This document shows, in pieces, positions 30,039 through 57,524 of a stretch of DNA of 64,000 nt. Numbering within the stretch: position 1 is the stretch's first letter; each line of letters opens with the position of its first letter. The stretch comes from Natronoarchaeum mannanilyticum. GTDB lineage: Archaea > Halobacteriota > Halobacteria > Halobacteriales > Natronoarchaeaceae. The stretch is taken from contig NZ_BAAADV010000001.1 of the NCBI RefSeq assembly GCF_039522665.1, positions 558,001-622,000 on the forward strand. The letters run 5' to 3'. Under the pieces are notes generated by a model. That model had not been told where the DNA came from, did not search any database, and saw only the letters and a list, made by a program, of their open reading frames with translations. The translations under genes were made by a program, and so were the position numbers.

Positions 30039-30208
30039 GGTGCTCGGCTAGGCGAGGGCATCGCTGTGAGGGACAACGTCCGGGCTCCGCGCGGTCGTAG
30101 TCGAGCAACTGTAGTTACCAGTGGAGAGCACATCACCACGAAATCCCTCGCCCCGCCGACCGCGCCTCGCCCTTTCAGTCTGCCGGAAGACTCGCTGCGC
30201 TCGTCTTC

Positions 30209-30245: not shown

Positions 30246-30438
30246 CAGCACCGCATTGCGCGGGTCGCCTGACGGCGACCACGCGCTCTCCGGCCCTTCC
30301 CCGTGGGCGCGCCATGAAGGCGCGCCGGGCCGCGCGGGTAGTGGCGCGCGCTGTCGAGCCCTTGTGGTGAGACAGCAGCGCGCGAGGGAGGCGCCGAAGG
30401 CGCCGAGGCTGGGGAGGTGTGAGGCTGCGGTCTGCAGA

Positions 30439-30626
30439 GGGTGGGAATGAAAGGGGCCGCCGCGCTCGACCCGGTGAGGTCGTTCGAAAGGCGGCGCTCC
30501 GCGCCGCCTTTCGTGATGACGAGAGACGCCTTTGGCGTCTCTCGGACCACGACGCAAGCACCGCAGCGACCGACGGGAGCGAGGAGCGCAGCGAGTCGCA
30601 ACCGGTCGAGCGCGGCGGGGGCTTTC
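30439..30626 (+). repeat. Stem-variable element, copy A (188 nt)
   Basis: The element begins GGGTGGGAATGAAAGGGGC and ends GGGGCTTTC. Directly inside lie 14-nt arms CGCCGCGCTCGACC (30458-30471) and its exact complement (30604-30617). Nested inside are a 13-bp perfect hairpin (CGAAAGGCGGCGC, 30485-30497, with 30501-30513) and a 10-bp one (GAGAGACGCC, 30521-30530, with 30534-30543), then a GCAAGCACCGCAGC motif shared with copy B. Copies B and C are at 57265-57524. Confidence 0.8.
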
Positions 30627-57264: not shown

Positions 57265-57380
57265 ACACCTCGAAAGCCCCCGCTCGCTCCGGTCGAGGGG
57301 CTTGCTGCGCGCGCTCCCTTCGGTCGCGTGCTTACGGCGCCCGTCTTCCCGGAGCGAGCGGCCCCTTTCAGTCCCACCCA
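57265..57380 (-). repeat. Stem-variable element, copy C
   Basis: On the minus strand it reads GGGTGGGACTGAAAGGGGC, a 12-nt arm CGCTCGCTCCGG, an interior with AAGCACGCGACC, the complementary arm CCGGAGCGAGCG and GGGGCTTTCGAGGTGT. Outer blocks match copies A and B; the arms do not. Copies C and B are head-to-head with a 25-nt spacer. Confidence 0.82.
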
Positions 57381-57404
57381 TGTCGGCTGGTCGATCAAGC
57401 GTAG

Positions 57405-57524
57405 GGGTGGGACTGAAAGGGGCTGACGCCTCGACGTACCCGGACGAAGCAAGCACCGCAGCCGCCGAAGGCCGAGGAGCGAAGCGAGTCCCGGAAGTCG
57501 AGGCGTCAGGGGCTTTCGAGGTGT
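57405..57524 (+). repeat. Stem-variable element, copy B
   Basis: It begins GGGTGGGACTGAAAGGGGC (57405-57423), arm TGACGCCTCGAC (57424-57435), interior with GCAAGCACCGCAGC, the arm's exact complement GTCGAGGCGTCA (57497-57508) and ends GGGGCTTTCGAGGTGT (57509-57524). The 19-nt start and 16-nt end are identical to copy C. Confidence 0.82.

Follow-up and report, generated by a model that had tools for sequence, protein, structure and literature searches.

A dispersed non-coding element of the Halobacteriales with a covarying, probably single-stranded core

The 64,000 nt of Natronoarchaeum mannanilyticum DNA analyzed here (the window) contain three copies of a hairpin element with conserved flanks and with stems that differ from copy to copy. 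The question raised by these loci is why stems that have been rewritten remain matched. The three copies that had been predicted from the sequence were found at 30439-30626 (copy A), 57405-57517 (copy B), and 57272-57379 (copy C). The arms quoted for each are exact complements, and the word GCAAGCACCGCAGC is indeed common to copies A and B (positions 30554-30567 and 57449-57462). Copies B and C are arranged head to head, separated by 25 bp, and the composite that they form is located between convergent genes. We favor, with a probability of about 55%, the reading that the copies belong to a dispersed non-coding element of the Halobacteriales that has a folded single-strand core (likely RNA) with a probable quadruplex clamp and compensated stems, and that was spread by transposons. 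The features of the two loci are listed below.

57265..57524, no strand: whole composite, including the matching outer tips ACACCTCGAAAGCCCC ... GGGGCTTTCGAGGTGT (from the sequence)
57272..57379, minus strand: left-hand folded core module of the composite, copy C (covariance model R1, 99.8 bits)
57380..57404, no strand: centre of 25 bp between modules B and C, ATGTCGGCTGGTCGATCAAGCGTAG (from the sequence)
57405..57517, plus strand: right-hand folded core module of the composite, copy B (R1, 118.9 bits; fold z −3.7)
57405..57414, plus strand: 5' tail of copy B, GGGTGGGACT, with two G-runs, half of those in the proposed quadruplex
57415..57419, plus strand: 5' strand of helix P1 of copy B, GAAAG (partner CTTTC at 57513-57517)
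30439..30626, plus strand: copy A, core module with a nested insert within it (R1, 39.9 bits; fold z −6.2)
30480..30552, plus strand: nested double-hairpin insert in copy A, ends approximate (alignment with uninterrupted copies)

In the window, GGTGGGANTGAAAGGGG with up to three mismatches occurs four times, compared to 0.30 expected occurrences, and the three exact matches are the three copies. In the own genome, GGGTGGGANTGAAAGGGGC with up to two mismatches was found 28 times and the reversed control not once, while a BLAST search with the composite as query listed 36 matches. A composite with 90% identity to that of the window is located at G000:C4:304456-304714, and other composites, too, have in their centres the word CGGCTGG that lies between B and C. 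Copies taken singly form better folds than shuffled sequences (z of −3.7 for copy B and −6.2 for copy A). The insert in copy A belongs to another family, made up of double hairpins whose stems are likewise rewritten yet stay matched (for example TCGTTCGAAAGG...CTTTCGTGATGACGAGAGAC...GTCTCTCGGACCACGA), which are inserted at varied places inside the elements; its members are the insert at 30480-30552 of the window, L014, L028, L034, L045, L047, L151, L164, L167, L168, L181, and L208.

The folded core and its distribution

With a covariance model, for which up to 12 candidates were scored per genome, the core was detected in 245 of 292 genomes of the class, and all 44 positive genomes of a phylum-wide sample were from the same order. 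The element recurs throughout the Halobacteriales, up to 84 times in one genome; the matches include Halorubrum, Haloarcula, Haladaptatus, Halobaculum, Natrinema, and others, and a match in a Bacteroidales bin (L080) had no good stem. The original prediction had proposed to search related genomes for further copies with covarying arms. Such copies were found in 65 of the 76 genera of the class, with strong covariation. It had also stated that no similar named haloarchaeal family is known, in agreement with the absence of such a family from Rfam and from the open-access papers searched: Rfam yielded only tRNAs at the gathering score and otherwise chance-level weak matches to the inverted repeat, and the sequence words had no match in the open-access literature. 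A viral origin was rejected because there was no exact 18-mer in viral contigs, none of the 32 viral stretches with a 16-mer had a covariance-model match, and annotated phages contained no copy. A CRISPR repeat was likewise rejected because the copies are dispersed and no direct-repeat array is present at the locus; the GGGAnTGAAAG-type word, in which a resemblance to the end of some CRISPR repeats had been seen, is accounted for by the G-rich tail together with the 5' strand of P1.

The core of about 110-120 nt would act as one folded single strand, most likely RNA. From the outside inward, the proposed fold begins with helix P1 (GAAAG/CTTTC or CAAAG/CTTTG) and a GGG/GGG loop that does not vary, followed by the 12-13 bp of helix P2, whose sequence can change freely, by helix P3 with a near-constant C mismatch, by tandem G.A/A.G steps, and by a short apical part. 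From the fetched loci, 212 distinct copies were extracted, a clean P2 stem was present in 181, and 111 different 10-mers were found in the 5' arm. Flanks that are conserved around stems that are rewritten yet matched, as described originally, were also evident in an alignment of 42 diverse copies. This alignment was built without regard to structure, but copies with an extra base in P2 were excluded and the stems were named from the same sequences, so that its figures lean somewhat towards the structure: the 27 named pairs are formed in 96.4% of the cells, 22 of them show two-sided changes, and the covariation score is 0.640, compared to 0.155 ± 0.012 for shuffled and at most 0.119 for slid structures. 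RNAalifold, unaided, predicted nearly the same structure as the named pairs. The outermost pair covaries as well, with GAAAG/CTTTC in most genera and CAAAG/CTTTG in Halorubrum-type genomes. The loop between P1 and P2 is unpaired GGG/GGG in all 42 copies, and the C mismatch of P3 and the G.A/A.G steps are mostly kept. The core has the hallmark of a structured RNA family, covarying pairs above the controls on one strand, and the claim of selection for structure is supported. Loss of a whole hairpin is frequent (L008, L176, and G069), perhaps by slippage between the flanking GGGGC repeats. In G072 (L247/L225), the interior is inverted relative to the forward copy at the orthologous site in G039 (L220:14518) with the flanks kept, and the first hairpin at this site also has a compensated change from G-C to T-A.

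In a second class of modules, the same loop is GG/GG (GAAAG-GG-CGAG ... CGAG-GG-CTTTC), and the 5' tail of these modules is GGNGG instead of GGGNGGG, in 8 of 8 modules and in 17 of 17 with a verified partner. When the tail was left free in 145 genomes, GG-H-GG was found at 133 of the 150 GG/GG sites tallied among the matches listed, four further sites had GGNGG with an extra G, 13 had other tails, and none had GGGNGGG, the strings of this tally having been transcribed by hand. The GGG/GGG modules have the GGGNGGG tail in 190 of 198 cases, and in 64 of 67 cases at loci that were fetched without a tail pattern; three copies of the own genome, with the tails GGGTGG or GGGAGG, break the rule. Altogether, the four G-runs, which lie on either side of a hairpin about 100 nt long, change their length jointly (3 versus 2), and the two classes may stem from few lineages or ancestral events. 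Such a joint change would be expected if the runs formed a quadruplex of either three or two tetrads. Judging from these sequences, P1 and P2 probably clamp a G-quadruplex between them, to which the loop would contribute its two GGG strands and the 5' tail its two G-runs; through this clamp, the folded strand would bind a host protein or a ligand.

Head-to-head composites and their mobility

The original prediction had recognized the pair at 57265-57524, but had missed both that head-to-head pairs are a recurring unit and that they are mobile, with IS6-type ends elsewhere. These pairs are miniature transposons. In the genome G268, near-identical head-to-head composites are scattered over sites, and their ends of about 45 bp form an inverted repeat of which two variants are combined as aa, ab, and bb. 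The composite of G260 is of the same type. In both genomes, the composites have IS6-type ends, GTA[CG]TGTTTAGAT[AT]AGC at both sides, with a TGTT motif in the inverted ends, and they contain no transposase gene of their own. Target duplications of 8 bp were found in G268 and G260 (TCGAACCG, TCAGCGAC, GTGCGTGA, and CACGCGGC, the last at the composite of G260). The loci L307, L308, L310, and L288 have 8-bp duplications, and L306 matches at 6 of 8 positions. G268 also contains an IS6 copy (L330) that begins with GGTAGTGTTCAGATTAGC and has ends that match those of the composites, as well as a relic of 62 bp. The IS6 transposase gene of G268 scored 121.7 bits with the NCBIfam model IS6 (cut-off 125) and 29.1 with the Pfam model DDE_Tnp_IS240 (cut-off 27), and it appears to be damaged. 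IS6 elements are characterized by 8-bp duplications, GG tips, and a TGTT motif, and two IS6 MITEs are described (PMC7986276). Separately, the left and right flanks of L304 and L305 in G268 are exchanged, the left 8 bp of one composite being the right 8 bp of the other (CTCGCGAC), which suggests recombination between copies.

In the window, no IS6-type ends were matched when up to three mismatches were allowed, and in other genera, other outer sequences surround the core. Therefore, the core is older or more widely shared than any of the ends. The element would have spread in the form of non-autonomous transposons, which often contain a head-to-head pair of cores and, in at least two genera, have IS6-type ends. 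At the site of the composite in the window, only a decayed remnant is present in the same-genus genome G001, and nothing in G003 and G005. G081 was considered as an empty site and discarded, because its intergenic stretch is too diverged for a clean junction.

Long form, putative promoter, and plasmid setting

A longer element, of which copy A forms the right half, has the following additional features.

30166..30180, minus strand: inner end of the left domain, on the reverse strand, of the element containing copy A, CTCGCCCTTTCAGTC
30341..30389, plus strand: upstream hairpin module of the long type, GTGGCGCGCGCTGTCGAG ... GAGACAGCAGCGCGCGAGGGA
30410..30424, plus strand: conserved linker of the long type, TGGGGAGGTGTGAGG

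The linker TGGGGAGG is a feature of this long type. The upstream hairpin, with arms that flank a GA/GA step, was found in 52 of 110 long copies, compared to none in shuffled sequences and one on the other strand. In 24 of 56 Halorubrum-type long copies, versus 0-1 in control windows, the 25 bp that precede the first conserved word contain a TATA box, mostly at −15 to −13; none was found in 16 GAAAG-type long copies, including those of the own genome. With the usual archaeal spacing, this position predicts that the RNA starts at the foot of the first hairpin, in TATA-bearing copies about 14 nt downstream of the first base of GCGGTGGCG. In Halorubrum-type long copies, the own promoter would drive the RNA from this hairpin, and we infer from the promoter-like sequences that the element is probably transcribed. 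The TATA box at a fixed spacing in these copies makes RNA the likelier identity of the folded molecule. In the own genome, partial copies of the element tips (..GCGGCGGGGGCTTTCAGNGNGTT..) are repeated in tandem, about every 60-65 bp, in the flanks beyond both ends of long-type copies (L014-L034).

On plasmids, the module has a preferred neighbor. In six of eight plasmids inspected, about 600 bp separate it from a divergent gene that encodes an RPA/SSB-like OB-fold protein; by coordinates, the same holds for at least 12 of 30 plasmid records, and the same arrangement of module and RPA-like gene is found on contig C8 of the own genome. Conserved hairpins are present between the module and the plasmid RPA-like gene, and no second domain was found beyond the far side of the gene. 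At L185, L187, L188, L189, L191, L192, and L209, the start of the RPA-like gene and the module are connected by a conserved, hairpin-rich stretch of about 400-640 bp, which recurs on many plasmids of haloarchaea. The association with the RPA-like gene makes a role as single-stranded DNA possible.

Alternative explanations and known systems

The matched stems had originally been ascribed either to selection or to a copying mechanism that regenerates the second arm from the first. In the latter case, quasi-palindrome correction by replication slippage would rebuild one arm from the other, and the fold would be functionless. Many arms are perfect, as copying would produce them (in 140 of 202 copies, all 12 outer pairs are formed), and the two inverted interiors, one of which is an inversion at an orthologous site, are also in its favor. 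However, arm copying would turn GGG/GGG into GGG/CCC, and the presence of GGG/GGG in 42 of 42 copies speaks for selection for one fold and not for copying, as do the conserved G.A steps, the conserved C mismatch, and the polarity of the interior, which is forward in 171 copies and inverted in 2. In addition, the mismatches are biased: 168 distinct stems contain 77 G.T pairs versus 24 A.C mismatches (binomial p of about 1e-7, too optimistic because the copies are related). G.T and A.C represent the same event seen from either strand of double-stranded DNA, so that the excess of G.T indicates that the GGGTGGGA strand is selected to fold. Arm copying as the origin of the matched stems is thus largely contradicted by loop, polarity, and strand-biased mismatches, and we regard it as quite improbable; the stems would instead be rewritten by ordinary substitutions that others later compensate, with selection acting on the fold of one strand. 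Little more probability is assigned to an ordinary miniature transposon with hairpins that are by-products of its terminal inverted repeats. The IS6-type ends and target duplications in G268 and G260 are in its favor, and copies without hairpins exist (L008 and L332), but the core is conserved order-wide and across different outer ends, it lies beside plasmid RPA-like genes and covaries internally, none of which is explained by terminal repeats alone, and its conservation in lineages without mobile ends is partly seen.

That the element serves neighboring genes as a terminator, insulator, or UTR element is very improbable. Nearly all copies are intergenic, and the composite in the window is flanked by convergent genes, but the orientation relative to the neighbors is even (++ 57, +− 45, −+ 39, and −− 38, based on home-made gene calls), and no T-run follows the module; a terminator or UTR element was rejected on these grounds. 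A weightier competitor, though still an unlikely one, is that the folded strand is DNA, forming a hairpin or quadruplex when the region becomes single-stranded during plasmid transfer or on the lagging strand. The RPA-like protein would then recognize the fold, or the fold would start synthesis or transcription, and transposons would have taken up the module later. In bacterial plasmids, single-strand origins and single-stranded promoters start synthesis or transcription. The proximity to the RPA/SSB-like gene on plasmids and on contig C8 argues for DNA, and strand-specific folding fits single-stranded DNA as well as RNA, whereas the TATA box at a fixed spacing in Halorubrum-type long copies argues against it, as does the location of most copies on chromosomes, away from the RPA-like gene.

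The favored reading, a folded core that is likely RNA, has parallels in several known systems. In Spinach-type aptamers, which were selected in the laboratory, a quadruplex is clamped between coaxial helices, the same layout as proposed here; the clamp of the present element, in contrast, is proposed from natural sequence covariation. Integron attC sites and REP/REPIN hairpins have conserved ends, stems that vary but pair, and strand-specific folding, as does the element, but no linkage to cassette arrays, an integrase, or a REP-associated Y1 transposase was found, and the target duplications seen in two genera suggest that a DDE transposase is involved. The composites of G268 and G260 are like IS6-family MITEs in their lack of a transposase gene, their TGTT inverted ends, their 8-bp duplications, and the matching-end IS6 copy in G268. 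They are unlike them in that the interior is a conserved covarying fold shared far beyond the IS6-type ends, which the window copies do not have. Numerous non-coding mobile repeats (MITEs, PATEs, and small repeats), some with palindromes near their ends, are reported for Haloquadratum in the parts of the source used here (PMC3119063), and both these and the present element are non-coding mobile repeats of haloarchaea. According to the same parts, PATEs are derived from IS605 elements and have neither terminal repeats nor target duplications, and neither an order-wide covarying core nor a G-run rule is described there (PMC3119063). An IS605-derived PATE was rejected, since G268 and G260 carry terminal repeats and 8-bp duplications.

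A bolder reading, which we put forward only tentatively, is that the elements are order-wide archaeal RNA genes, each with its own promoter and with a quadruplex clamped between two helices, that were repeatedly made transposable cargo by insertion-sequence ends. They might then be present in dozens of copies per genome in some Halorubrum-type genomes, and would be a natural counterpart of the laboratory quadruplex aptamers. If the favored reading is true, the element is among the most widespread structured non-coding families in haloarchaea, one that readily escapes notice, since plain sequence searches fail to join copies whose stems diverge so quickly. In the joint shift of four G-runs from 3 to 2, sequence comparison provides a signature, rarely seen, of a natural quadruplex within a defined fold. 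The family also supplies this fold in hundreds of natural variants, and haloarchaea, with their molar intracellular potassium, are an apt place for testing the quadruplex.
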